A DNA stretch of 64,000 nucleotides from Lachnospiraceae bacterium (GTDB taxonomy: Bacteria; Bacillota; Clostridia; Lachnospirales; Lachnospiraceae): the NCBI GenBank assembly GCA_022774705.1, contig JALFLM010000181.1, positions 19,966-83,965 of the forward strand. The letters are read 5' to 3'. Shown here one piece after another: positions 1,623 through 29,583 of this stretch. Position 1 is the stretch's first letter. Each line of letters begins with the position of its first letter. The notes beneath the pieces were generated by a model. That model had not been told where the DNA came from. It was given only the letters and a program-made list of their open reading frames with translations, and searched no databases. Position numbers and translations under genes: made by a program.

Positions 1623-4223
1623 ATGAATATCAGTAAGTTTACGCAGAATTCTCTGCAGGCGGTTCAGAACTGTGAAAAGCTGGCATATGATTTTGGCAAT
1701 CAGGAGATTGATCAGGAGCATCTGCTTTACAGCCTGCTGCAGCTGGATCAGAGCCTGATTCTCAGGATGATTGAGAAGATGGAGATTAATGGAGAGCAAT
1801 TTACCGGACGGGTCAGACAGCTGATTGAAAAGCGTGTGAAAGTATCCGGCGGCAAGGTATATATCAGTCAGGCATTGAATCAGGTTCTGCTTCATGCAGA
1901 AGATGAAGCGAAACGTATGGGAGACGAGTACGTTTCCGTTGAGCATCTGTTTCTTGCCATGCTGGCGGATCCCAATCAGGCCATAAAAGGACTGTTCAAA
2001 GAGTATGGAATTACCCGGGAACGTTTTCTCAAGGTTCTGTCTACCGTGCGGGGGAATCAGAGAGTAACCTCTGACAACCCCGAAGTAACCTACGATACGC
2101 TGAACAAGTACGGCGTGGATCTGGTACAGCGTGCTTCCGAGCAGAAGCTGGATCCTGTCATCGGCAGAGACAGTGAGATCCGCAATGTAATCCGGATCCT
2201 GTCCCGCAAGACAAAAAACAACCCCGTTCTGATCGGTGAACCCGGTGTTGGTAAGACGGCGGTAGCGGAAGGCCTGGCACAGCGTATTGTCCGTGGGGAT
2301 GTGCCCGAGACCCTGAAGAACAAAACTATTTTCTCTCTGGATATGGGAGCCCTTGTGGCGGGTGCCAAGTACAGAGGTGAATTTGAAGAGCGCCTGAAGG
2401 CCGTACTGGATGAAGTCCGCAAGAGTGAAGGAAAGATTATTCTGTTCATTGATGAACTTCATACAATTGTGGGTGCCGGCAAGAGTGACGGTGCCATGGA
2501 TGCCGGCAATATGCTCAAGCCCATGCTGGCAAGAGGTGAGCTGCACTGCATTGGTGCCACCACGCTTGATGAGTACCGCAAGTATATCGAGAAGGATGCA
2601 GCGCTGGAGCGCCGCTTCCAGCCTGTTACGGTGGATGAACCTACGGTGGAGGACACCATTTCCATCCTTCGTGGTATCAAGGACCGTTATGAGGTTTACC
2701 ATGGCGTGAAGATTACCGATGCGGCTCTGGTCAGCGCTGCCACATTATCTCACCGGTATATTACGGATCGTTTTCTGCCTGACAAGGCCATTGATCTGGT
2801 GGATGAAGCCTGTGCGCTCATTAAGACAGAGATGGATTCCATGCCGGCCGAGATGGATGAGCTGCAGCGAAAGATCATGCAGCTGGAGATCGAGGAAGCT
2901 GCTCTGAAAAAGGAGACAGACCGTCTGAGTATGGAGCGGCTGGCAGATCTTCAGAAGGAACTGGCGGAGATGCGTGAGAAATTCTCAGCCATGAAAGCCA
3001 ATCTGGACAGCGAGAAAGCTTCTGTGGAGAAGCTGAAAAAACTCCGCGAGGAGATTGATGCGGTTAACAGTGATATCCAGACCGCACAGCAGAATTACGA
3101 TCTGAATAAGGCGGCAGAGCTGATGTACGGCAAGCTGCCCCAGCTGAAAAAGGAACTGGAGGCGGAAGAAGAGGCTGTTAAAAAGAAGGATCTGTCTCTC
3201 GTGCATGAAGCCGTAACGGATGAGGAGATTTCCAGAATCGTTTCCAGATGGACCGGTATTCCGGTTGCAAAGCTGACGGAAAGCGAGAAGAACAAGACCC
3301 TGCATCTGGATGAAGAACTTCACAAACGTGTCATTGGTCAGGATGAAGGTGTGCAGAAGGTAACGGAAGCAATTATCCGTTCCAAAGCCGGAATCAAGGA
3401 TCCTGATAAGCCCATCGGTTCCTTCCTGTTCCTGGGACCTACCGGTGTAGGTAAGACGGAGCTTGCCAAAGCACTGGCGGAAAGCCTGTTTGATGATGAG
3501 AACAACATGGTGCGTATCGATATGAGTGAATATATGGAGAAGTTCTCCGTATCGAGACTGATCGGAGCACCGCCCGGATATGTGGGTTACGATGAAGGCG
3601 GCCAGCTGACAGAAGCTGTTCGCAGAAAACCCTATTCTGTTGTCCTGTTTGATGAAATCGAAAAGGCACATCCTGATGTGTTCAATGTGCTGCTTCAGGT
3701 TCTGGATGACGGCCGGATCACTGATTCTCAGGGCAGGACGGTGGATTTCAAAAATACGATTCTGATCATGACATCCAATATCGGTTCTTCTTATCTGCTG
3801 GAGGGTATTGATGAAAACGGTGAGATCAATGAGGATGCCAGAAGCATGGTTACGCAGGAACTGCGTTCTCATTTCAGGCCGGAATTCCTGAACCGTATCG
3901 ATGAGACCATTATGTTCAAGCCTCTGACCCGCGATAACATCGGCGGCATTATCGATCTGATGATGAAAGATCTGAACAGACGGCTGCAGGAGCGCCAGCT
4001 GTCTGTGGAACTGACAGAAGAAGCAAAGCATTATATTGCAGACAACGGATATGACCCCGTTTACGGTGCCCGTCCGCTGAAGCGTTATCTGCAGAAATAT
4101 GTGGAGACGCTGGCGGCAAGAATCATCCTTGGCGGTGATATCAGCGAAGGTGATGTGATTCAGATCTGTCTGGAAGGAGATCATCTCGATGCAGTGGTCA
4201 TCAGCTATCCCAGGGAAAACTGA
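1623..4223 (+). CDS. clpB: ATP-dependent chaperone ClpB
   Basis: Clp_N domain; two AAA modules ([31 protein letters not shown]); coiled-coil middle domain; full length. Confidence 0.95.
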
Positions 4224-11563: not shown

Positions 11564-14131
11564 ATGGCAGCATTTGATCGGGTATTATCGGGGTATCCCA
11601 GTATGGATCAGGTTCTGGATTATATCCGGCTGGGTGATAATGTGGTGATTCAGGTTACCGGTATGGATGAATTCCGTTTTTTTGTGGAGCCTTATGTGGA
11701 GCAGGCAAAAAAAGACGGCAGGAATCTGATCTATTTCCGTTTTGCCAGCCATGCACCGCTGGTAAAGAAAGAGGATGCAAAGTGGTACTGCCTTGATCCG
11801 GGAGAAGGCTTTGAGCAGTTTACCATCCGGGTTCACAGGATTATTGAGAAGGAGGGGCGGGATGCATTTTATGTGTTTGACTGCCTGTCGGAGCTTCAGG
11901 TGGCCTGGGCCGCCGATCTGATGATGGGCAATTTCTTCTGCGTGACTTGTCCGTTTCTGTTTATTCTGGATACGGTTGCCATGTTTCCTGTCATCCGCGG
12001 TGATCATTCTCATGAGACGATTGCGCGGATTCAGGAAACGACACAGCTTTTTCTCGATGTTTATTCCGATGAAAAGAATATTTATCTGCATCCGGTAAAG
12101 GTGTGGAACCGCTATTCGGCTACCATGTTTCTTCCTCATCGGGCTGATAAACAGGAAAAGGTCTTTACAACGCTGACGGATTCGGTAAGTATGAGCCGGT
12201 ACTATTGGGTGGTTGGGCAGTATCTGAGTACGGAGGATCAGAATCTGGACAGCTGGGAACGCTATTTTCAGAAATCACGTACCTGTGAACCGTCCCAGGA
12301 AGAAGAAATTAAATCGAATTTCTGTCGTATGATGATGACGAAGGATTCGAAAATCCGTGAGATGTTCGGGAAATTTTTCGAGATAAAAGATTATTATCGG
12401 GTAAAAGACCGGCTCATCGGCAGCGGGAAGATCGGAGGTAAATCCTGCGGTATGCTTTTGTCACGCAGTATTGTGCAGAAATGTCTCCCTGAACTGTCAG
12501 AGCGGATGGAACCCCATGATTCTTTTTATATCGGAAGTCATGTATTTTACACCTATCTCGTTTACAATAAATTGTGGGATCTTCATGTAGCTCAGAAAGA
12601 AAAAGACAGATATTATGAGCTGGCAGGGCAGCTTTCCGATGGAATTCTGCACGGTGTATTTCCGGAAGCAATCCGCAGTCAGCTGCGAAGAATGCTGGAA
12701 TATTACGGTCAGGCACCAATTATTGCAAGATCCAGCAGTATGCTGGAGGATGGTTTCGGCAATGCATTTGCCGGGAAATATGAGTCGGTTTTCTGCGCCA
12801 ATCAGGGGACGCCGGAGGAACGTCTGGAGAAGCTGGAGGATGCAATACGGATTGTTTATGCCAGCGCGGTGGATCCTTCCGCACTGGAGTACAGGAGAAA
12901 CCGCGGGCTGGATGCGCTGGAGGAACAGATGTCAATTCTGGTGCAGAGAGTTTCCGGCTCTATGCACGGAACGTATTTCTTCCCTTCGGCGGCAGGTGTC
13001 GGGTATTCTTACGATACGTATGGATGCAGTCAGAATCTGGATCCGGAAAAGGGCATGCTCCGTATGGTTTACGGTCTGGGAACTCGGGCGGTGGACCGGA
13101 CCGATAACGATTATCCCAGGATCATACATATAGATAAGCCGGAGCATACATATCTGACAACCATGAACGAAAAAGTGAGATTCTCCCAGAGAAAGCTGGA
13201 TGTCATACATCTGGAGAAAAAAGATGTGGTGGAAATTTCTCTTGAGGAGATGATGAAGGTAACGCCCAGGTGGTACCATAATCTGGTGCTGGAGCATGAC
13301 AGGGAGATGGAACAGAATTATTACAACACCAGAGGTGTGCGCCGGGATATCTGCTTCGGAACCTGCCATGGATATGTGAAGAACCGGCAGTTTCTGAAAG
13401 ACATGGAGCTGATTCTGGCCACACTGGAACGGGAATATACCTATCCGGTGGATATCGAATTTACAGTCAATTCCAATGAAAGGAAAGAGTATGTAATCTG
13501 TCTGCTGCAGTGCAGACCATTGCAGGTATTTTCAGGGGAGGGGAAAATCGAAATACCCGATATACCTCAGGAGAAGATCCTGTTTGAAACAACGGGAAGT
13601 TCCATGGGCAAGCCGCAGCAGAAGCAGCTGGATGCTGTTGTACTGGTTGATGCGAAAGCTTACTATGATTATCCTTACAAACGGAAGCCGGAAGTGGCGG
13701 ATCTTCTTACGATGATCAATACTTCATTTCGGGGAAGCGGTAAAAATGTGCTTCTGATGGTGCCCGGAAGAATCGGGACCTCGTCACCGGAGCTGGGAAT
13801 ACCGGTGAAATTTGCAGGGATTTCCCAGTTCTGTGCCATCGTTGAAATGGATGACGATCAGTCCGGCTATTCACCGGAGCTGTCTTTTGGCAGTCATATG
13901 TTCCAGAATCTGGTGGAAGCGGAGATTTTCTATACAGCTCTGCTTAAAACAGGGAAGGAAGGTGCAGAGAAACGTGAAAAACTGCTTTCCGGTATCGGAA
14001 AAATGTGTGAATTACCGGAATCGTACCGGCATTTATCGGATATGGTGCATGTATATCAGACAGAAGAAGCGGGACTGACGCTGTATTATGATATGGATAA
14101 AGGAAGGACGGTGTGTGGAATCAGCAGGTAA
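11564..14131 (+). CDS. PEP/pyruvate-binding (PPDK_N) domain protein with N-terminal degenerate RecA/KaiC-like region
   Basis: GKIGGKSCGMLLSRSIV and IIARSSSMLEDGFGNAFAGKYESVF match PPDK_N core motifs; N-terminus GYPSMDQVLDYIRLGDNVVIQV is KaiC-like without a P-loop. Confidence 0.75.
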   Translation: MAAFDRVLSGYPSMDQVLDYIRLGDNVVIQVTGMDEFRFFVEPYVEQAKKDGRNLIYFRFASHAPLVKKEDAKWYCLDPGEGFEQFTIRVHRIIEKEGRDAFYVFDCLSELQVAWAADLMMGNFFCVTCPFLFILDTVAMFPVIRGDHSHETIARIQETTQLFLDVYSDEKNIYLHPVKVWNRYSATMFLPHRADKQEKVFTTLTDSVSMSRYYWVVGQYLSTEDQNLDSWERYFQKSRTCEPSQEEEIKSNFCRMMMTKDSKIREMFGKFFEIKDYYRVKDRLIGSGKIGGKSCGMLLSRSIVQKCLPELSERMEPHDSFYIGSHVFYTYLVYNKLWDLHVAQKEKDRYYELAGQLSDGILHGVFPEAIRSQLRRMLEYYGQAPIIARSSSMLEDGFGNAFAGKYESVFCANQGTPEERLEKLEDAIRIVYASAVDPSALEYRRNRGLDALEEQMSILVQRVSGSMHGTYFFPSAAGVGYSYDTYGCSQNLDPEKGMLRMVYGLGTRAVDRTDNDYPRIIHIDKPEHTYLTTMNEKVRFSQRKLDVIHLEKKDVVEISLEEMMKVTPRWYHNLVLEHDREMEQNYYNTRGVRRDICFGTCHGYVKNRQFLKDMELILATLEREYTYPVDIEFTVNSNERKEYVICLLQCRPLQVFSGEGKIEIPDIPQEKILFETTGSSMGKPQQKQLDAVVLVDAKAYYDYPYKRKPEVADLLTMINTSFRGSGKNVLLMVPGRIGTSSPELGIPVKFAGISQFCAIVEMDDDQSGYSPELSFGSHMFQNLVEAEIFYTALLKTGKEGAEKREKLLSGIGKMCELPESYRHLSDMVHVYQTEEAGLTLYYDMDKGRTVCGISR

Positions 14132-14158
14132 AAAACAAAAAATAATTTTAAAATATAC

Positions 14159-14187
14159 TTGACAAATAGGAATACTTGGTATAATAT
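14159..14187 (+). promoter_or_regulatory. Promoter for the Cys-rich leader ORF / sulfate operon
   Basis: TTGACA 14159-14164; TGG-TATAAT (extended -10) 14180-14185, spacing 15, or TAATAT 14182-14187, spacing 17; direct repeat ATACTTG at 14155 and 14172. Confidence 0.65.
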
Positions 14188-14251
14188 ATCAGACATACAA
14201 AACATACTAATCCGGTATGAGAAGTAAAGCTAACAGAAAGGGGAAACGTTC

Positions 14252-14416
14252 ATGATGAAAAAAATGGCATCCTGTAGAGCGATGTGTTGCTGCAGCAGCT
14301 GCGAGGGCTGCAATGTGATGTGTATGTGCGGGATGCACAGTGATTTTCATGATGCGTTTTGTGTGCCTGATTGTTTACGAATGAAGTGCATGGCAGTTCC
14401 CGATGCGGGTGATTGA
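14252..14416 (+). CDS. 54-aa Cys/Met-rich peptide MMKKMASCRAMCCCSSCEGCNVMCMCGMHSDFHDAFCVPDCLRMKCMAVPDAGD (candidate leader peptide; not in ORF track)
   Basis: ATG preceded by AGAAAGGGG SD 9 nt upstream; 11 Cys and 9 Met in 54 codons; upstream promoter; downstream terminator. Confidence 0.7.
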   Translation: MMKKMASCRAMCCCSSCEGCNVMCMCGMHSDFHDAFCVPDCLRMKCMAVPDAGD

Positions 14417-14439
14417 TGCTGTTATGATTATGATATTCG

Positions 14440-14469
14440 GGCAGGTGCGAACGCGTACCTGCCTTTTTT
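14440..14469 (+). terminator. Intrinsic terminator / candidate attenuator downstream of Cys-rich ORF
   Basis: GGCAGGTGCG AACG CGCGTACCTGCC-type stem (10 bp including one G-U, 4-nt loop) followed by TTTTTT. Confidence 0.85.
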
Positions 14470-14577
14470 GCAGTCAGAGACCTTTTTACAATTACAGATA
14501 AACCAATAAGTCGGAAATCATTTCAGCTGACCGGAAAACCGGAGGTTTGAACAGGACAGAAATCCGGCTGCAGGCAT

Positions 14578-14647
14578 AAAGCATGGGAACGTGCAAAGCA
14601 TGAAAATGTGCAGAGCATGGGAACGTGCAGAGCATGAAGACGTGTGC
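14578..14647 (+). repeat. Tandem 17-bp repeat (~4 units), each a potential small RNA hairpin
   Basis: AAAGCATGGGAACGTGC / AAAGCATGAAAATGTGC / AGAGCATGGGAACGTGC / AGAGCATGAAGACGTGTGC, then degenerate AGAGCCTGCGGCG. Confidence 0.92.
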
Positions 14648-14858
14648 AGAGCCTGCGGCGCGGAAATCAGAAGTTCAGACCTTCGGTTTTTTCTATGCCG
14701 GCATGATCTGTAAAGGAAAACAAACGTGCAGGATGAAAATACGGATATAAAATGAAAATCAAAAATCAGAAATCAAAAAAATGGAAAGTAAGAATTGAAA
14801 ATATGAATCGGAAATAAAAATCCGAAAGTGTATGAGCATGGAAAGAGAGGAGAAAATT

Positions 14859-15923
14859 ATGAGAAAAAGATTAGTAAGTTCAGGTTTGGCAGCAGTTCTG
14901 GCAGCAGCTTTGGCAGCAGGAAGTCTGACAGGATGCGGAGGCGGAAAAGGTAATGATGCGGCAACAGAAGCGGCCAAAAATGCATCGGCTGCCGATAAAG
15001 TCACCATTACCAATGTCTCCTACGATCCAACCAGAGAGTTATACGAGCAGTACAATAAAGTTTTTGCAGAACACTGGAAGGAACAGACGGGTCAGGACGT
15101 GGAAATCACCCAGTCACATGGCGGCTCCGGTAAACAGGCTCTGGAGGTAGCCAACGGTCTGGAAGCCGATGTGGTGACTCTGGCGCTGGAGTATGATGTA
15201 AAGGCTGTTGAGGATGCCGGTCTGATCGAGCCCGGCTGGAAAGAAGAGTTTGACAAGGACAGTTCTCCGTACACATCAACCATTGTATTTCTGGTAAGAA
15301 AAGGGAATCCCAAAAATATTAAGGACTGGGGAGATCTGGTGAAGGACGGCATCGGTGTTATTACACCAAATCCCAAAACCTCCGGCGGTGCCAGATGGAA
15401 TTACCTGGCTGCATGGGCATATGCGGACAAGCTGTACAGCGGAGACGAAACCAAAATCAAAGACTTTATGAAAAAATTATACGAAAATGTGCTGGTTCTT
15501 GATTCCGGTGCAAGAGGTGCAACCACATCTTTCGTGGAAAACGGACAGGGCGACGTACTCCTTGCATGGGAAAATGAAGCGTATCTTTCCATTAAAGATG
15601 CTCCCGATGATTATGAAATCATAACACCCAGCATCAGTATTCTGGCTCAGCCTTCCGTTGCAGTTGTGGATGAGGTGGTTGATGCCAGAGGAACCCGTGA
15701 TGTGGCAACCGGGTATCTGAAATATCTTTATTCTGATGAAGCACAGAAAATCGCAGGAGACAATTTTTATCGTCCTTCCAATGAAAAAATCCTTCAGGAA
15801 TACAGCGACACCTTTGATCTGAATATCAACCTGGTAACCATCGATGACTTCGGCGGCTGGGATAAAGCGCAGGAAACCCATTTTGCCGATGGCGGTGTTT
15901 TCGATCAGATTTATGAAAAATAG
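14859..15923 (+). CDS. sbp: Sulfate ABC transporter substrate-binding lipoprotein (Sbp/CysP family)
   Basis: Lipobox [47 protein letters not shown]; followed by cysT/W/A. Confidence 0.92.
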
Positions 15924-15992
15924 ACAGGTGTGAAAAACAGACGGATCAGCCCTTCGGGGCTGATCTGATGAAGAAGAAAAGCAGAAGGAGTT

Positions 15993-16838
15993 ATGAAGGC
16001 CATGAAAAAAGCTGGTAAACGGGTGATTCCCGGTTTTGGATTGTCGATGGGAGTTACACTTGCCATATTAAGCTGTGTTGTATTGATTCCACTGGCATCA
16101 CTGGCTGTTTATTCTTCGCAGCTGGGCATAAAGGAATTTAGTGAAGTGGTAACAAGAGAGCGGGTGCTGTCAAGCTTTTATGTCAGTTTTCTCACGGCTG
16201 CTGCTGCAACGGCTGTCAATGCAGTTATGGGTGTGGTGATTGCATGGGTTCTGGTACGGTATGATTTTCCGGGTAAACGGATTATGGACGGGATGATCGA
16301 GCTGCCATTTGCCCTGCCCACTGCAGTGGCGGGCATTGCACTGACCTCTCTTACATCGGATACGGGATTTGTGGGACGTTTTTTTGCACGCTTCGGGATC
16401 CGCATTGCCTACACCAGAATCGGTATTACCATTGCTCTGGTTTTCATCGGGATTCCTTTTGTGGTAAGAGCGGTACAGCCGGTGCTGGAAAAACTGGATT
16501 CTTCCTGTGAAGAGGCGGCCAGAGCGCTGGGAGCGGAACCGTCGGTTGTTTTCTGGAAGGTCATTTTTCCGGAACTGAAGCCGGCGTTGTTTACCGGTGC
16601 AGGACTGGCTTTTGGAAGATGCCTGGGAGAATACGGAAGCGTTGTATTTATAGCAGGAAATAAACCCTACTATACGGAAATAACGCCTTTGATCATCATG
16701 TCCGAACTGCAGGAATATGATTACGCCAGTGCCACGGCAATCGCACTTGTCATGCTGGCTGCCTCATTCCTGATTCTGTTCCTGGTGAATCTGGTACAGG
16801 CAAAAAATTCACAAATTTTACAGGGAGGAAACGGCTGA
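15993..16838 (+). CDS. cysT: Sulfate ABC transporter permease CysT
   Basis: Binding-protein-dependent permease; LPFALPTAVAGIALTSL; EEAARALGAEPSVVFWKVIFPELKPAL EAA loop; operon context. Confidence 0.9.
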   Translation: MKAMKKAGKRVIPGFGLSMGVTLAILSCVVLIPLASLAVYSSQLGIKEFSEVVTRERVLSSFYVSFLTAAAATAVNAVMGVVIAWVLVRYDFPGKRIMDGMIELPFALPTAVAGIALTSLTSDTGFVGRFFARFGIRIAYTRIGITIALVFIGIPFVVRAVQPVLEKLDSSCEEAARALGAEPSVVFWKVIFPELKPALFTGAGLAFGRCLGEYGSVVFIAGNKPYYTEITPLIIMSELQEYDYASATAIALVMLAASFLILFLVNLVQAKNSQILQGGNG

Positions 16839-17674
16839 TGCAGGAAAATAGAAAATCATCAACGGTTACAAAATGGTTTCTGATCGGAATCAGTGTTCTG
16901 TTTCTGGCTGTTATGCTGCTGCTTCCGCTGATTACGGTCATTACCGAAGCACTTCGCAGCGGATGGGATGTGTACATAGAATCGGTTTCGGACGAATATA
17001 CGATCAAAGCGCTGCAGCTGACGATTGAGGCAACAGCAATATCCGTAATCATCAACACGGTTTTTGGACTGTTTGCGGCGTGGGCCATTACCAGATTTCA
17101 ATTTAAAGGCAAAAAGCTTCTTACTACGATGATTGACATACCGGTTACGGTTTCACCGATTATTGCAGGTCTGATTTTCATACTGATTTTCGGGCGGCAG
17201 AGTGCTTTGTACCCTTATCTGCAGTCCATGGGAATTAAGGTTGTATTTGCGGTTCCCGGAATTGTACTGGCAACGATCTTTGTAACGTTTCCGTTTGTTT
17301 CCAGAGAATTGATTCCGGTCCTTGAAGTTCAGGGAACGGATGAAGAGGAAGCAGCAGCGCTGATGGGTGCAAAGGGATGGACGATTTTCAGCAAAATCAC
17401 TTTTCCTCATATTAAGTGGGCTTTTGTTTACGGTGTTGTACTGTGTACTGCAAGAGCTATGGGTGAATTCGGTGCTGTATCCGTTTTATCCGGTCATCTG
17501 CGGGGGAAAACCAACACACTTCCCCTGCATATAGAAATTCTGTTTAATGAGTTCCAGTATGTTCCGGCTTTTGCCGTGTCTTCGATCCTGGTGGTTCTGG
17601 CGATTTTCATACTGGTTGTACGAAGTATTGTGGAATATCGTGGAAAGAAAGAGGATGCAGAGAATGTATGTTGA
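16838..17674 (+). CDS. cysW: Sulfate ABC transporter permease CysW
   Basis: Permease with EEEAAALMGAKGWTIFSKITFPHIKWAF; GAVSVLSGHLRGKTNTLPLHIEILFNE typical of CysW. Confidence 0.9.
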   Translation: MQENRKSSTVTKWFLIGISVLFLAVMLLLPLITVITEALRSGWDVYIESVSDEYTIKALQLTIEATAISVIINTVFGLFAAWAITRFQFKGKKLLTTMIDIPVTVSPIIAGLIFILIFGRQSALYPYLQSMGIKVVFAVPGIVLATIFVTFPFVSRELIPVLEVQGTDEEEAAALMGAKGWTIFSKITFPHIKWAFVYGVVLCTARAMGEFGAVSVLSGHLRGKTNTLPLHIEILFNEFQYVPAFAVSSILVVLAIFILVVRSIVEYRGKKEDAENVC

Positions 17675-18722
17675 ACTGAAAGATATTAATAAAACATTCG
17701 GAAACTATAAAGCTTCCGATCAGGTGAATTTCGGAATTGAAAAAGGAAAACTCATCGGACTTCTGGGTCCCAGCGGAAGCGGAAAAACAACGATTCTGCG
17801 TATGATTGCCGGTCTGGAATCACCGGACAGCGGAGAAATCGTAATTGATGGAAGAGTGGTCAACAATATTCCTGCCAGTGAGCGGGGAATCGGCTTCGTC
17901 TTTCAGAATTATGCACTGTTCCGATATATGACGGTATTTGACAATATTGCCTTTGGACTGAAGGTGCAGAAACAGGATAAAGCAAGAATTAAAGAACGGG
18001 TCAGCGAATTGATTCGCCTGATCGGTCTGGAAGGGCTGGAAAAGCGTTATCCCAGTCAGCTGTCTGGCGGTCAGCGGCAGAGAGTGGCCTTTGCCAGAGC
18101 ACTTGCTCCTAATCCACAGCTGCTTTTACTGGATGAGCCCTTTGCTGCCATCGATGCCAAAGTCAGAAAAGAACTGCGCAGCTGGCTGAAGGATATGATT
18201 GAAAAGCTGGGCATCACCAGTATTTTTGTTACCCATGATCAGGAAGAAGCGATAGAAGTAGCTGATGAAATTATTATAACCAACCGGGGACGGATCGAGC
18301 AGATCGGCACACCGCTGGAAATTTACCAGAATCCGCAGACTGCATTTACCGCATCATTTTTCGGGGAAACCGCAATTCTGGAGGATTATCATGATTTTGT
18401 GAATTTCGATGAAATTCCGGGAGCGGAGCATGCCATTGTCCGGCCTGAATTTGTCAGTGTTCGGAAAAAGGATGAGGTGCAGAAGTTTAAAAGTTCCGCA
18501 TCGGAGGGAATCGTCGAAAGAGTGGCTTTCCGGGGAGACAGAATAGAACTGCGTGTCCGGGTCAATCATTCAGTGCTGACGGCACACCGCGGACTGGAAG
18601 AACAGCCGGTGGAGGTCGGAGAAACGGTCAATGTATTTCTGTACCGCATCTTTGTTACGGTGGGAGACCAGGCTTATCTGGTTGAAAACCGCTCCATGAA
18701 AGATGATTCCGTATTCATTTGA
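17664..18722 (+). CDS. cysA: Sulfate ABC transporter ATP-binding protein CysA
   Basis: GPSGSGKTTILRMIAGLE, LSGGQRQRVAFARALAPNPQLLLLDEPFAAIDAKVR; C-terminal TOBE-like region; overlaps the cysW end. Confidence 0.9.
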   Translation: MYVELKDINKTFGNYKASDQVNFGIEKGKLIGLLGPSGSGKTTILRMIAGLESPDSGEIVIDGRVVNNIPASERGIGFVFQNYALFRYMTVFDNIAFGLKVQKQDKARIKERVSELIRLIGLEGLEKRYPSQLSGGQRQRVAFARALAPNPQLLLLDEPFAAIDAKVRKELRSWLKDMIEKLGITSIFVTHDQEEAIEVADEIIITNRGRIEQIGTPLEIYQNPQTAFTASFFGETAILEDYHDFVNFDEIPGAEHAIVRPEFVSVRKKDEVQKFKSSASEGIVERVAFRGDRIELRVRVNHSVLTAHRGLEEQPVEVGETVNVFLYRIFVTVGDQAYLVENRSMKDDSVFI

Positions 18723-18781
18723 TGATTTTATTCGGACCAGGAGACACAATCATATTTTACGGGAAAGGATGAACCTGATTG

Positions 18782-20572
18782 ATGGAAACAAGAAAAATCA
18801 GAACAGACGTGCTGATCATCGGCGGCGGTACGGCGGGCTGCTTTGCCGCGATTACGCTGGGCAGGAAAAGCGGTCTCAATGTACTTATTGCGGAAAAAGC
18901 AAATATCAGACGAAGCGGCTGCCTGGCAGCAGGTGTGAACGCACTTAATGCATACATTACAAAAGGAAAAATTCCGCAGGATTACGTGGACTATGCCAGA
19001 AGAGATGCAGAGGGAATTGTCCGTGAAGATCTGCTTCTGTCCATGGCCGGGCGCCTGAATCATGTAACAAAGGAGCTGGAGGATCTGGGCCTTGTGATCC
19101 TGAAGGATGAAAACGGGGAATACGTAACGAGGGGCCCCCGCAATATTAAGATCAACGGCGAAAATATCAAACCCCTTCTGGCAGAAGCAGCTGCTTCTCA
19201 GGAACATGTTACGGTACTGAACCATGTCAACATCACGGATCTGAAAGTCGAAATTTCCGGGGAAGAAGGAGAAAAAGAAACAGAAGGCAGGCGGATTGCA
19301 GGCGCCTGGGGGTTCGATGTCAATCAGGAAATATTTTATGATATAGATGCAGGTGCGGTGATCTGTGCTTCCGGCGGAGCTGCCGGTTTGTACCGCCCCA
19401 ACAATCCGGGATTTTCCCGACACAAAATGTGGTACCCGCCCTTCAATACGGGGGCCGGTTATGCCATGGGGATTCTGGCGGGAGCAGAGATGACCACGTT
19501 TGAAATGCGGTTTATTGCCCTGCGCTGTAAGGATACAATTGCACCTGTGGGCACCATTGCTCAGGGAGTCGGTGCCAGACAGATCAACAGCAGAGGAGAG
19601 GTTTATGAGAACCGATACGGTCTGACCACTTCTCAGCGGGTTTACGGAACCGCGATGGAAAACAGAGAAGGAAGAGGTCCCTGCTATCTGCGCACAGATC
19701 AGATTTCAGAGGAGCAGCAGCAGGATCTTTATAAAGCCTATCTGAACATGGCTCCCGCACAGACACTGCGGTGGCTGGAATCCGGCAGAGGCCCTTCCGT
19801 GGAAAATGTGGAGATCGAGGGAACGGAGCCTTATATTGTGGGAGGTCATACGGCCAGCGGATACTGGGTGGACGGAAACCGCCAGACGACGATCCGGGGG
19901 CTGTATGCAGCCGGGGATGTGGCAGGCGGATGTCCGCAGAAATATGTTACCGGCGCTCTGGCAGAAGGAGAAATCGCCGCGGAGGCTGCCATAGAATATC
20001 TGAAAGCACAGGATGACAGGCGGCACAGAAATGATGATATTCAGGAAAGCAATGCTGCACGGGAAGACAGCGGCACTCGGGAAAACAATGGCAAAGAGCT
20101 TTCGGAACAGGGAAAAGCGAAAAAAGCGGAATATGAGGCCTTTCTGGAAAAATCACCTTCCCTGCTGACTGCAGAACAGCTGGAAGAGAATATGCAGAAA
20201 ATCATGGATCAGTATGCAGGCGGCATCAGTATGGATTACCGTTTCAGTGAAACACAGCTGAAGATCGCAGCTGAAAAGATTGCCGGGGTACAGCAGCTGA
20301 TACAGGAGCTTTCTGCCGGGAATATGGATGATCTTCTGAGAATCTATGAGCTGAAGGAACGGCTGGTTGTCTGTCAGGTGCTGATTGCTCATCTGATGGC
20401 AAGAAAAGAGACAAGATGGCACAGCTTTGCAGAGAATACGGATTATCCGCAGAAGTCGGATAACTGGATGAAATATGTAAATTCCAGAATGCAGAACGGA
20501 AAAATCAAAATCATTTATCGTGATCTTGTGACGGGAGGAGAAAAATATGAGCATTCAGATTCGGAGAGATAA
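18782..20572 (+). CDS. aprA: Adenylylsulfate reductase alpha-like flavoprotein (AprA family)
   Basis: FAD motif TDVLIIGGGTAGCFAAI; RRSGCLAAGVNALNAYI as in AprA; adjacent ferredoxin beta-like subunit and cysDN. Confidence 0.85.
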   Translation: METRKIRTDVLIIGGGTAGCFAAITLGRKSGLNVLIAEKANIRRSGCLAAGVNALNAYITKGKIPQDYVDYARRDAEGIVREDLLLSMAGRLNHVTKELEDLGLVILKDENGEYVTRGPRNIKINGENIKPLLAEAAASQEHVTVLNHVNITDLKVEISGEEGEKETEGRRIAGAWGFDVNQEIFYDIDAGAVICASGGAAGLYRPNNPGFSRHKMWYPPFNTGAGYAMGILAGAEMTTFEMRFIALRCKDTIAPVGTIAQGVGARQINSRGEVYENRYGLTTSQRVYGTAMENREGRGPCYLRTDQISEEQQQDLYKAYLNMAPAQTLRWLESGRGPSVENVEIEGTEPYIVGGHTASGYWVDGNRQTTIRGLYAAGDVAGGCPQKYVTGALAEGEIAAEAAIEYLKAQDDRRHRNDDIQESNAAREDSGTRENNGKELSEQGKAKKAEYEAFLEKSPSLLTAEQLEENMQKIMDQYAGGISMDYRFSETQLKIAAEKIAGVQQLIQELSAGNMDDLLRIYELKERLVVCQVLIAHLMARKETRWHSFAENTDYPQKSDNWMKYVNSRMQNGKIKIIYRDLVTGGEKYEHSDSER

Positions 20573-20861
20573 ATGTGTCGGATGCGGACGGTGTGTGGAA
20601 GCTTGTCCGGGAAATCTGATAAAACCGGATCAGGAAGGAAAAGCGGCAATCCGCCATATACGTGACTGCTGGGGATGCACCTCCTGTGTCAAGGAATGCC
20701 GGGCAGATGCCATTTTCTATTATCTGGGAGCGGATATGGGAGGAAGAGGCAGTACTCTGACCGTATCGGATAAGGGGGATCTTAACATCTGGAAAATTGA
20801 AGACCCTCAGGGAAAGGTACAGATACTGGAGGTCAGTAAAAAAACTGCCAATCAATATTAG
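20547..20861 (+). CDS. aprB: 4Fe-4S ferredoxin-type AprB-like subunit
   Basis: CVGCGRCVEACPGN and CWGCTSCVKECRADAI; 26-bp overlap with aprA. Confidence 0.85.
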   Translation: MSIQIRRDKCVGCGRCVEACPGNLIKPDQEGKAAIRHIRDCWGCTSCVKECRADAIFYYLGADMGGRGSTLTVSDKGDLNIWKIEDPQGKVQILEVSKKTANQY

Positions 20862-20916
20862 AAAAACTGCCAATCGATAGCCAATCGATATGAAAAAGAC
20901 TGCCAGTCAATATTTA
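20837..20916 (+). repeat. Degenerate tandem duplication around aprB end / cysD leader (AAAAACTGCCAATC[AG]ATAT)
   Basis: Four related segments: ACTGCCAATCAATATT, ACTGCCAATCGATA, GCCAATCGATAT, ACTGCCAGTCAATATT. Confidence 0.85.
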
Positions 20917-20943
20917 AATACGATCCGAGGGAGGACTAAAAGA

Positions 20944-21843
20944 ATGAGTGATCTGTCACATCTTGATAAACTGGAGGCAGAAGCAATTTATATTATCCGG
21001 GAAGTTGCAGCGGAGTGTGAAAAACCGGTGATGCTGTATTCCATTGGAAAGGACAGCTCTGTAATGCTGCATCTTGCAATGAAAGCATTTTATCCGGAAA
21101 AGCCGCCGTTTCCTTTTCTGCATGTGGATACTACATGGAAATTCAGGGAAATGATTCAGTTCCGGGACCGGATTGCCAGGGAAAAGGGGATTGAAATGCT
21201 GGTCTATACGAATCAGGATGGTGTGAAAGCCGGCATCAATCCTTTTGATCATGGCTCTGCCTACACAGACATCATGAAAACCGCGGCTTTGAAGCAGGCT
21301 CTGAATCTGTACGGATTTACGGCCGCATTCGGCGGGGGGCGCCGTGATGAAGAGAAATCCCGGGCCAAGGAGAGGATTTTTTCCTTCCGGAATGCGGCAC
21401 AGGCATGGGATCCCAAGAACCAGAGACCCGAAATGTGGAAGCTGTACAATACCAGAATCCAGAAAGGGGAGAGCATTCGCGTTTTTCCTATTTCCAACTG
21501 GACGGAAAATGATATCTGGCAGTATATCCGCAGGGAACAGATTGATATTGTTCCCCTGTATTTTGCAAAAGAAAGACCGGTCATCTATCGTGACGGAAAT
21601 ATCATCATGGTGGATGATGACCGACTGAAGCTTCGGGAGGGTGAAAAGATTGAATATAAAAAAGTCCGTTTCCGTACGCTGGGATGCTATCCTCTGACAG
21701 GTGGTGTAGAGTCGGAAGCGGATACGCTGGATGCAATTATTGAGGAAACGCTGAGTGCAGTATCGTCGGAACGAACCAGCCGTGTGATTGACCATGAAGC
21801 AGCCGGCAGCATGGAACGAAGAAAAAGAGAAGGATATTTTTAA
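20944..21843 (+). CDS. cysD: Sulfate adenylyltransferase subunit 2 CysD
   Basis: [69 protein letters not shown] before 20944. Confidence 0.95.
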
Positions 21844-21860
21844 GGAAGGAACATTGCACC

Positions 21861-23507
21861 ATGAAAGGATTATTAAAATGTATTACCTGCGGAAGTGTGG
21901 ACGATGGAAAATCAACATTGATCGGCCATATCCTTTACGATGCAAAGCTTCTTTATGCTGATCAGGAGAAGGCGCTGGAGCTGGACTCCAAAGTGGGAAG
22001 CCGTGAAGGAAAGATTGATTATTCTCTGCTGCTGGACGGACTGATGGCAGAGAGAGAGCAGGGAATTACCATCGATGTGGCTTACCGCTATTTTACGACG
22101 GATCACAGAAGTTTTATTGTGGCTGATACGCCCGGGCATGAAGAGTATACCAGAAATATGGCGGTGGGTGCATCATTTGCCGATCTTGCCGTGATTCTTG
22201 TGGATGCCACCCAGGGAGTTCTGGTGCAGACGAGGCGTCATGCAAGGATCTGTGCCCTGATGGGAATCCGGCATTTCGTTTTTGCTGTCAACAAAATGGA
22301 CCTGGCAGGATACAGTGAGCCCCGTTTCCGGGAGATAGAAAAAGAAATCGGCCAGTTGGCAGAGGCGGTTTCACTGGAACATGTGATGATCATTCCCGTT
22401 TCGGCAACGGAAGGCGATAATGTTACTGAAAAGTCCGAAAATACCCCCTGGTATCAGGGACCGGCACTGCTTTCCTGGCTGGAAAATGTGGATATTACAG
22501 AAGCGTCTCATGAGAAAGGCTTTTATATGCCTGTACAGCGCGTATGCCGGCCGGGTCATGAATTCCGCGGTTTTCAGGGGCAGATCGAATCAGGTTTCAT
22601 CCGTACAGGCGATCAGGTCACCGCATTTCCCAGCAGGGAACAGGCTCATGTAAAAAGTATCCATGTGGGAGATCAGAAGGTAGAAGAAGCACAAAAGGGA
22701 CAGCCTGTGACGATTCAGCTCGACCGGGAGGTGGATGTTTCGAGAGGATGTGTACTGGCTGCTGATTCAGGAATCCGTGTTGCAGCCTCGGTTACTGCGA
22801 CGCTTTTGTGGATGGATGATACCGGACTGGAAGAAGGCAAAAACTTTTTTATCAAACTGGGAACAAAGATGATTCTGGGACGGGTGGACCGGATTCTGTA
22901 TGCTGTTGATGTGAATTCCGGAGAAAAGAAAAAAGCGGAGACTCTGGGGAAAAATGAAATCGCTTCCTGTATTCTGTCTTTTTCAGACAAGGTAGTGGCA
23001 GATGAAGTTAACAGCCATAAAACGCTGGGGGAACTGATTCTGATCGATCAGATTACCAATATGACATCTGCATGTGGTGTGGTAACATCCCTGCAGACGG
23101 AGTCGGATGACCGGTACGAAAAGAAGGTGGACAGAACCTTCCGTTCCATACTGAAGAGACAGACACCGGCTGTTGTGGAATTTCCGGTGGGCAGTGATGG
23201 TATTACCATGGAAATGGTGGAAGCAGTAGAGAAAAATCTAAGCGTTTCCGGCAGGCATACATATCTGTATGTACCTGTACAGGAGGAGAATTATGCTGCT
23301 GTAGCCCATCATCTGTATGAAGCCGGCATACTTGTCCTGCTGGTTGTGCCTGATCAGAAGAAAGCAGATGAGGCGCTGGGAGACAAAGAATTTTATTACA
23401 GCGGCTGGCAGAAAAAAACAGGGACTGCAGTAAATGAAATAGTAGATTTTATTAAGAAAATTTCATCATCTTCCGCAGGCGATTCAGTGGACAGAGATTA
23501 CATTTAG
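21861..23507 (+). CDS. cysN: Sulfate adenylyltransferase subunit 1 CysN (GTPase), without a CysC domain
   Basis: GSVDDGKSTLIGHILYDAK, ADTPGHEEYTRNMAVGASFADLAVILVDA. Confidence 0.94.
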   Translation: MKGLLKCITCGSVDDGKSTLIGHILYDAKLLYADQEKALELDSKVGSREGKIDYSLLLDGLMAEREQGITIDVAYRYFTTDHRSFIVADTPGHEEYTRNMAVGASFADLAVILVDATQGVLVQTRRHARICALMGIRHFVFAVNKMDLAGYSEPRFREIEKEIGQLAEAVSLEHVMIIPVSATEGDNVTEKSENTPWYQGPALLSWLENVDITEASHEKGFYMPVQRVCRPGHEFRGFQGQIESGFIRTGDQVTAFPSREQAHVKSIHVGDQKVEEAQKGQPVTIQLDREVDVSRGCVLAADSGIRVAASVTATLLWMDDTGLEEGKNFFIKLGTKMILGRVDRILYAVDVNSGEKKKAETLGKNEIASCILSFSDKVVADEVNSHKTLGELILIDQITNMTSACGVVTSLQTESDDRYEKKVDRTFRSILKRQTPAVVEFPVGSDGITMEMVEAVEKNLSVSGRHTYLYVPVQEENYAAVAHHLYEAGILVLLVVPDQKKADEALGDKEFYYSGWQKKTGTAVNEIVDFIKKISSSSAGDSVDRDYI

Positions 23508-23541
23508 ACTTTTTTCTGTAAACGAAAATGGTAAATAGTGC

Positions 23542-23570
23542 TTGACAAACAGAACTGACGGGATTATGAT
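23542..23570 (+). promoter_or_regulatory. Promoter upstream of yezD (TTGACA-17-TATGAT)
   Basis: Consensus -35, 17-bp spacer, 5/6 -10. Confidence 0.75.
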
Positions 23571-23638
23571 ATCTGCAATAAAGTATATTAAAAAGATATG
23601 AATTGTATGATATTAAAAACAGGCAGGAGTATTACACT

Positions 23639-23797
23639 ATGGAACGAACAAAAGTCACAGAAGAAGAACTGGAACAGATAAAAAAATTTATAGAAGAGAT
23701 CCGTTTCGGTTCCGTCACTGTAATCGTACAGGACAGTAAGATCGTTCAGATTGAAAAACATGAAAAAGTAAGAATGAACAGCAGAATCGGCTTCTGA
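23639..23797 (+). CDS. YezD-family small protein (DUF2292)
   Basis: 52 aa, EEELEQIKKFIEEIRFGSVTVIVQDSKIVQIEKHEKVR; family often adjacent to sulfur-assimilation genes. Confidence 0.82.
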   Translation: MERTKVTEEELEQIKKFIEEIRFGSVTVIVQDSKIVQIEKHEKVRMNSRIGF

Positions 23798-23801
23798 TCG
23801 G

Positions 23802-23848
23802 AAAACGCCGCCGGATCCTGAGCAATCGGGAATTCCGGCGGCGTTTTT
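23802..23848 (+). terminator. Intrinsic terminator after yezD
   Basis: AAAACGCCGCCGGA ... TCCGGCGGCGTTTTT. Confidence 0.88.
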
Positions 23849-23964
23849 CCATGTCCGGAATCGGGAAAGTTAAATAATCATCCCGCAGGTTGTCTTTCAG
23901 TCTGTTTTCAGATATAATATCAGTAAGTGTGTTTGCGCATACATATTGATTTTGGAGGATGACA

Positions 23965-29354: not shown

Positions 29355-29395
29355 GGGAAAATTTGTAATCAAGGGATTGTTTTCTCAAAAAATAA

Positions 29396-29424
29396 TTGCA
29401 TAATATGCAGAAAAGATGTATAAT
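29396..29424 (+). promoter_or_regulatory. argC operon promoter (TTGCAT-17-TATAAT), overlapped by palindrome TGCATAATATGCA
   Basis: -35 29396-29401, -10 29419-29424, perfect -10. Confidence 0.7.
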
Positions 29425-29453
29425 TATTCTCGCTCTCATAGGATGTAATACTG

Positions 29454-29487
29454 AAAACTCACTGTCACTGCGGCGGAGAGTTTTTTT
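29454..29487 (+). terminator. Weak intrinsic-terminator-like hairpin in argC leader
   Basis: AAAACTC (17-nt loop) GAGTTTT TTT. Confidence 0.45.
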
Positions 29488-29523
29488 ATCTCAGACGGAG
29501 CGGGGGCGGGACAGAATCCGCGC

Positions 29524-29583
29524 ATGAGAATTTATTATCGAATGAGGAAGGAGATGTCTGCCGGTACACACCGGCGGCGGTGA
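29524..29583 (+). CDS. Candidate arginine-rich leader peptide MRIYYRMRKEMSAGTHRRR* upstream of argC
   Basis: 20 codons read directly; 6 Arg of 19 residues, CGG CGG CGG TGA at end; stop overlaps argC GTG (GTGA) and SD. Confidence 0.55.
   Translation: MRIYYRMRKEMSAGTHRRR

Follow-up and report, generated by a model that had tools for sequence, protein, structure and literature searches.

The 64,000-nt stretch of Lachnospiraceae DNA analysed here (the window) carries a block of sulfate-assimilation genes that is headed by a short open reading frame (ORF) rich in cysteine and methionine (Table 1). This ORF begins with ATGATG, ends with TGA and encodes a product of 54 amino acids, MMKKMASCRAMCCCSSCEGCNVMCMCGMHSDFHDAFCVPDCLRMKCMAVPDAGD, which includes 11 Cys and 9 Met residues, as well as 3 His and the spacings CxxC and CxC. 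The first-pass annotation had described the ORF, its Cys and Met counts and its clear Shine-Dalgarno (SD) sequence exactly as they stand in the DNA, and had named the following genes as sbp-cysTWA-aprAB-cysDN, an assignment borne out by family profiles, with aprB recognized by its position and CxxC pattern. Cysteine makes up 1.7% of the residues encoded by the genes of the window versus one-fifth of the small-ORF product. When the 700-nt intergenic region was shuffled with its dinucleotide composition preserved, a Cys-rich ORF (40–80 codons, at least 20% Cys) appeared in 1 of 20,000 replicates, and among the ORFs of 35–80 aa found in 820 kb (n = 4155) just one other contains at least 20% Cys, and this frame is read antisense across a tandem repeat. 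The synonymous codon use of the small ORF is not gene-like (log-odds of −1.0 versus a median of 8.3 for gene windows), a test that we regard as uninformative to negative. Elsewhere in the window, a 60-aa frame with 15 Cys on the minus strand (29360–29542) is driven by repetition of CTGCCSCTGCCS and is not comparable to the small ORF.

Table 1 Features of the sulfate-assimilation block and its upstream region (window coordinates)
Feature	Position	Strand	Evidence or details
Block present here, absent in G002	14126-23884	+	flanks 86% and 80% identical
Cysteine-regulon promoter/operator	14132-14226	+	-35 14159-14164, -10 14180-14185, conserved CAAAACATAnTAA..TATGA downstream
Shine-Dalgarno AGAAAGGGG	14235-14243	+	sequence; 8 nt before ATG of the small ORF
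54-codon Cys/Met-rich ORF	14252-14416	+	sequence; 1/20,000 shuffles
Intrinsic terminator T1, 10-11 bp stem, AACG loop, T6	14439-14470	+	dG -20.2 kcal/mol
Terminator-like hairpin T2	14527-14692	+	arms 14535-14552/14673-14690, T6 14687-14692; dG -76
sbp, sulfate ABC transporter substrate-binding protein	14859-15923	+	NF008022, TIGR00971
cysT, cysW, cysA	15993-18722	+	TIGR02139, TIGR02140, TIGR00968
aprA and adjacent aprB-like ferredoxin-type ORF	18779-20861	+	aprA NF005331; aprB by position and CxxC pattern only
cysD, cysN	20890-23507	+	NF009214, TIGR02034
DUF2292 (YezD-type) small gene, own promoter and terminator	23639-23797	+	PF10055; sequence

The promoter of its own that had been attributed to the small ORF, TTGACA followed by TGG-TATAAT, holds up: 12 of the 12 hexamer bases match, across a spacer that is short (15 nt), and the transcript is predicted to start ~60 nt upstream of the ORF. 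Relatives of this promoter were sought by a DNA search of 397 family genomes with the intergenic region as the query. The promoter is 81% identical over 71 nt (E = 1.9e-10) to that of cysK in the same genome (G000:C103), and further matches at 76–78% are found in G030, G218, and G197. The gene behind the match is cysK in G000, G030, and G218 and encodes a solute-binding protein in G197; weaker matches in G009 and G088 likewise precede cysK. The aligned promoters have in common the block ACTTGACAAATAGGAATA..GGTATAAT and, past the −10 element, a second conserved stretch, CAAAACATA.TAA....TATGA. A strict motif, TTGACAAATAGGAATA-N2-4-GGTAT, occurs at two sites in the 3.45 Mb of this genome, one ahead of cysK and one ahead of the small ORF (none with the reversed control), and a slightly looser version at three sites in the 397 genomes, corresponding to the own cysK, the small ORF, and cysK of G218. 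A shorter motif of 14 nt also hits unrelated genes at a clear background level, and this short form alone is not diagnostic.

The cysK product of this genome scores above the cut-off of TIGR01139, and 100 nt past the gene lies a member of the Rrf2 family (L101:4462-4908; PF02082, above cut-off). The best specific model for the Rrf2 protein is CymR (NF047409), at 113 bits versus a cut-off of 195, and judging from this score we consider the protein to be CymR-like, not an assigned CymR. In Bacillus subtilis, the CymR-CysK complex represses its regulon when cysteine is present (PMC3828012) and the cysK site reads CATAATACCAATACAAATAGTCGGAAATTGAGGT (PMC11487621); this site and the small-ORF promoter have ACAAATAG..GGAA in common, a partial match that is a lead only. 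The locus thus resembles the CymR regulon of B. subtilis, and that predicted in C. acetobutylicum (PMC3828012), in the upstream element common with cysK and in the Rrf2 gene adjoining cysK, but differs in that the score of the regulator is under the equivalog cut-off and its binding here is putative.

In G002, the one same-genus genome compared at this locus (n = 1), the PPDK-type gene found upstream of the block (92% aa identity) and the gene found downstream are joined by ~28 nt (locus L161), whereas the 9.8-kb block has no counterpart. The flanks are clean, with no direct repeats seen, and what is absent from G002 is exactly the small ORF, sbp-cysTWA-aprAB-cysDN, and the DUF2292 gene. The small ORF and the sulfate operon were therefore gained or lost as one unit, this single comparison being compatible with a gain here or a loss in G002. 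Collectively, the promoter common with cysK, the Rrf2 gene beside cysK and the gain or loss together with the sulfate operon make the link of the small ORF to cysteine metabolism, as judged from sequence, well supported, and the sulfur connection proposed in the first-pass annotation is upheld. Equally well supported is the conclusion that the small ORF is real, unannotated, and located at the head of the sulfate-assimilation block behind a cysteine-regulon promoter. At the other end of the block, the promoter of the DUF2292 gene (23542–23570, TTGACA-17-TATGAT) loosely resembles the cysteine-regulon promoter (TTGACAAACAG-AA).

From the stop codon of the small ORF to the ATG of sbp, there are ~440 nt, which contain both T1, starting 23 nt past the stop codon, and T2. 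The loop of T2 holds four tandem hairpin units of ~17 nt, GCATG-GGAA-CGTGC (14578–14652), and the spacer containing T2 has a folding z of −5.0. In G337, G242, and G388, the 5′ arm of T2, CTGACCGGAAAACCGGAGGTT, is met again, there as the terminator that follows DUF2292 (YezD-type) genes; T2 has no Rfam match, and the idea that its motif is a widespread RNA element was dropped, since the motif was found in no more than a few genomes. The best promoter-like sequence within 330 nt of sbp matches 7 of 12 bases (9 of 12 when the spacer may be 15 nt), as opposed to at least 10 of 12 in 32 of the 56 other sbp loci. It should be noted that activator-dependent promoters can lack a −35 element, so that the missing consensus promoter at sbp is weak evidence.

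This arrangement is reminiscent of ribosome-mediated attenuators of the trp/his type, whose ORF has many codons for the end-product amino acid and is followed by an intrinsic terminator: a Cys-rich ORF (11 of 54 codons, with an SD; start and translation predicted) stands at the start of the transcript, and T1 lies between it and the structural genes. It differs from them in the second terminator-like element and in the antiterminator, for which none of the candidates rises above chance. Alternative pairings of the T1 arm do no better than shuffled sequences (P = 0.62), and a joint 1:2/2:3 design of four segments (14188–14203, 14356–14371, 14441–14449, and 14454–14463) is at chance (P = 0.48), so that a mutually exclusive antiterminator pairing was not recovered. 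Two pairings with a classical 1:2:3:4 look, an antiterminator (14362–14370:14442–14449) and a transcript-start arm (14188–14203:14356–14371), were rejected as no better than shuffles. In the folding predictions, T1 forms regardless of which 5′ segment is occupied by a ribosome, and the leader region contains no Rfam riboswitch or T-box.

No relatives of the small-ORF protein were found by tblastn in ~570 genomes (145 relatives and 397 family genomes, two overlapping sets, and 31 with a related sbp), although searches with a short, composition-biased query may miss diverged relatives; the best matches, including the one in L079, reflect low-complexity Cys composition in unrelated frames. Phage, plasmid, and viral-contig collections likewise yielded no homologs. 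ORFs of the form MKY.KYA.C..V.C.ENC in L046 and L076 were dismissed, the frame in L076 being antisense to a LacI-type gene. A comparable Cys-rich ORF is present upstream of sbp in none of the 56 other sbp loci, so among these loci the conservation upstream of sulfate operons that the first-pass annotation had set as a test was not observed; the one same-genus genome compared lacks the block. Pfam, NCBIfam (E up to 10), and PDB gave no match for the small ORF. Bacterial metallothioneins of the SmtA/BmtA type are of similar size, with ~20% Cys and few aromatic residues, and the small-ORF product is like them in all three respects but differs in matching no metallothionein profile. Consequently, the metal-binding small protein offered earlier as the main alternative gained no positive evidence from families or solved structures, and the suggestion that methionine might also be sensed found no support. 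A SCIFF/ranthipeptide precursor was considered and set aside, as no radical-SAM maturase was noticed among the genes of the block.

Candidate Cys-rich leaders, without terminators, have been described before cys operons of Mycobacterium and P. acnes and before cbs of B. longum (PMC1262725), and conserved, ribosome-occupied Cys-rich upstream ORFs (uORFs) before mycobacterial cysA2 and nirA (PMC4633059). In the locus studied here, as in these actinobacterial cases (PMC1262725, PMC4633059), a sulfur-assimilation operon is preceded by a short ORF rich in Cys. However, the actinobacterial uORFs are conserved, carry their Cys runs close to the stop codon and have no intrinsic terminators (PMC1262725, PMC4633059), whereas in the small ORF Cys is spread over 54 codons, strong terminators follow, the host belongs to the Firmicutes and the promoter is of the cysK type. 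Conservation of position and Cys codons in relatives, as in the actinobacterial type, was not found (0 of 56 loci, no homolog).

A tentative reading, based on these sequence features, is that the small ORF encodes a Cys-sensing leader peptide of the sulfate operon, which we rank slightly above a small thiol- or metal-binding protein. The small ORF is the first coding unit of the block and stands behind the same promoter type as the own cysK-Rrf2 operon. The CymR-like Rrf2 repressor would open this promoter at low cysteine, translation through the 11 Cys codons would report the level of charged Cys-tRNA, and this level would tune the transcription that passes T1/T2 into sbp-cysN, a read-through step that we infer in its entirety. 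The leader would then add a second layer of control, comparable to the trp repressor plus attenuator. Consistent with such a leader are the promoter match to the own cysK, whose strict motif is seen nowhere else in the genome, the Rrf2 gene, the absence of the block as a unit in G002, the proximity of T1 to the stop codon, and the poor promoter of sbp relative to other sbp loci. The lack of homologs and of gene-like codon bias are leader-like traits, Cys-rich uORFs before sulfur genes have precedents in Actinobacteria (PMC1262725, PMC4633059), and it would be odd for a 20%-Cys protein to be made from a promoter that presumably opens when cysteine runs short. On the other hand, neither a competing pairing of the T1 arm nor the joint design beats shuffles, T1 is predicted to form whichever upstream part is hidden, T2 is a second barrier before sbp, 54 codons with Cys throughout are long for a leader, and the other sbp loci have no such ORF. 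Of the cysteine-sensing leader put forward in the first-pass annotation, the cysteine link is thus retained, whereas attenuation is not supported, given the pairing tests, the two terminators that separate the ORF from sbp, and the 56 sbp loci. The fuller model, in which a Firmicute Cys-codon leader is controlled twice, at the promoter by a CymR-like repressor and at one or both terminators by read-through that depends on Cys-tRNA, within a sulfate-assimilation module gained or lost as such, is rather doubtful.

Also possible is a stand-alone gene of the cysteine regulon, monocistronic, whose 54-aa product, rich in Cys and Met, would be a thiol- or metal-binding protein of use during sulfate reduction, for example by buffering metal, sulfide, or thiols. 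The complete transcription unit (promoter, SD, ORF, and terminator) fits this proposal, as do the second terminator-like element before sbp, the CxxC and CxC spacings with 3 His, and the gain or loss along with the pathway; it is countered by the absence of a homolog or family in any library searched, by codon usage that is not gene-like and by the cost of inducing a 20% Cys protein in presumed Cys shortage. An orphan or decaying ORF devoid of function, in which an inserted sequence split the operon promoter from sbp and sbp now uses another promoter, would account for the lack of conservation and the repeat-filled spacer, and a weakly similar promoter stands directly in front of one Selenomonadaceae sbp (L074); yet SD, start, and terminator are intact and placed as at cysK, and the Cys content is that of 1 in 20,000, so we consider this unlikely. 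A small regulatory RNA of ~275 nt, running from the cysteine-regulon promoter to T1 with the ORF as an incidental or dual-function passenger, agrees with the promoter-terminator distance of ~280 nt and with the uninformative codon usage, but is quite improbable given a fold that comes close to random once T1 is left out (z = −1.05), no Rfam match, the clear SD on the ORF, and a Cys content far above chance.

To our knowledge, proposals of attenuation through cysteine codons have concerned mainly Actinobacteria, and we know of no Cys-rich ORF in the CymR regulon; Firmicutes normally use T-boxes and CymR. If the leader reading is correct, the Firmicute Cys-rich ORF together with control of the cysteine-regulon promoter would constitute a second and independent way of sensing Cys, and a cysteine attenuator would exist in a phylum that normally relies on other means. 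Even as a small protein, the product would be an unannotated cysteine-regulon member of a gut-type anaerobe (a Firmicute related to clostridia), and further hidden sulfur genes could be traced by the promoter signature. In G197, the same promoter type is found directly before a gene for a solute-binding lipoprotein (L104, ~3765–3843, minus strand), possibly a further member of the regulon.
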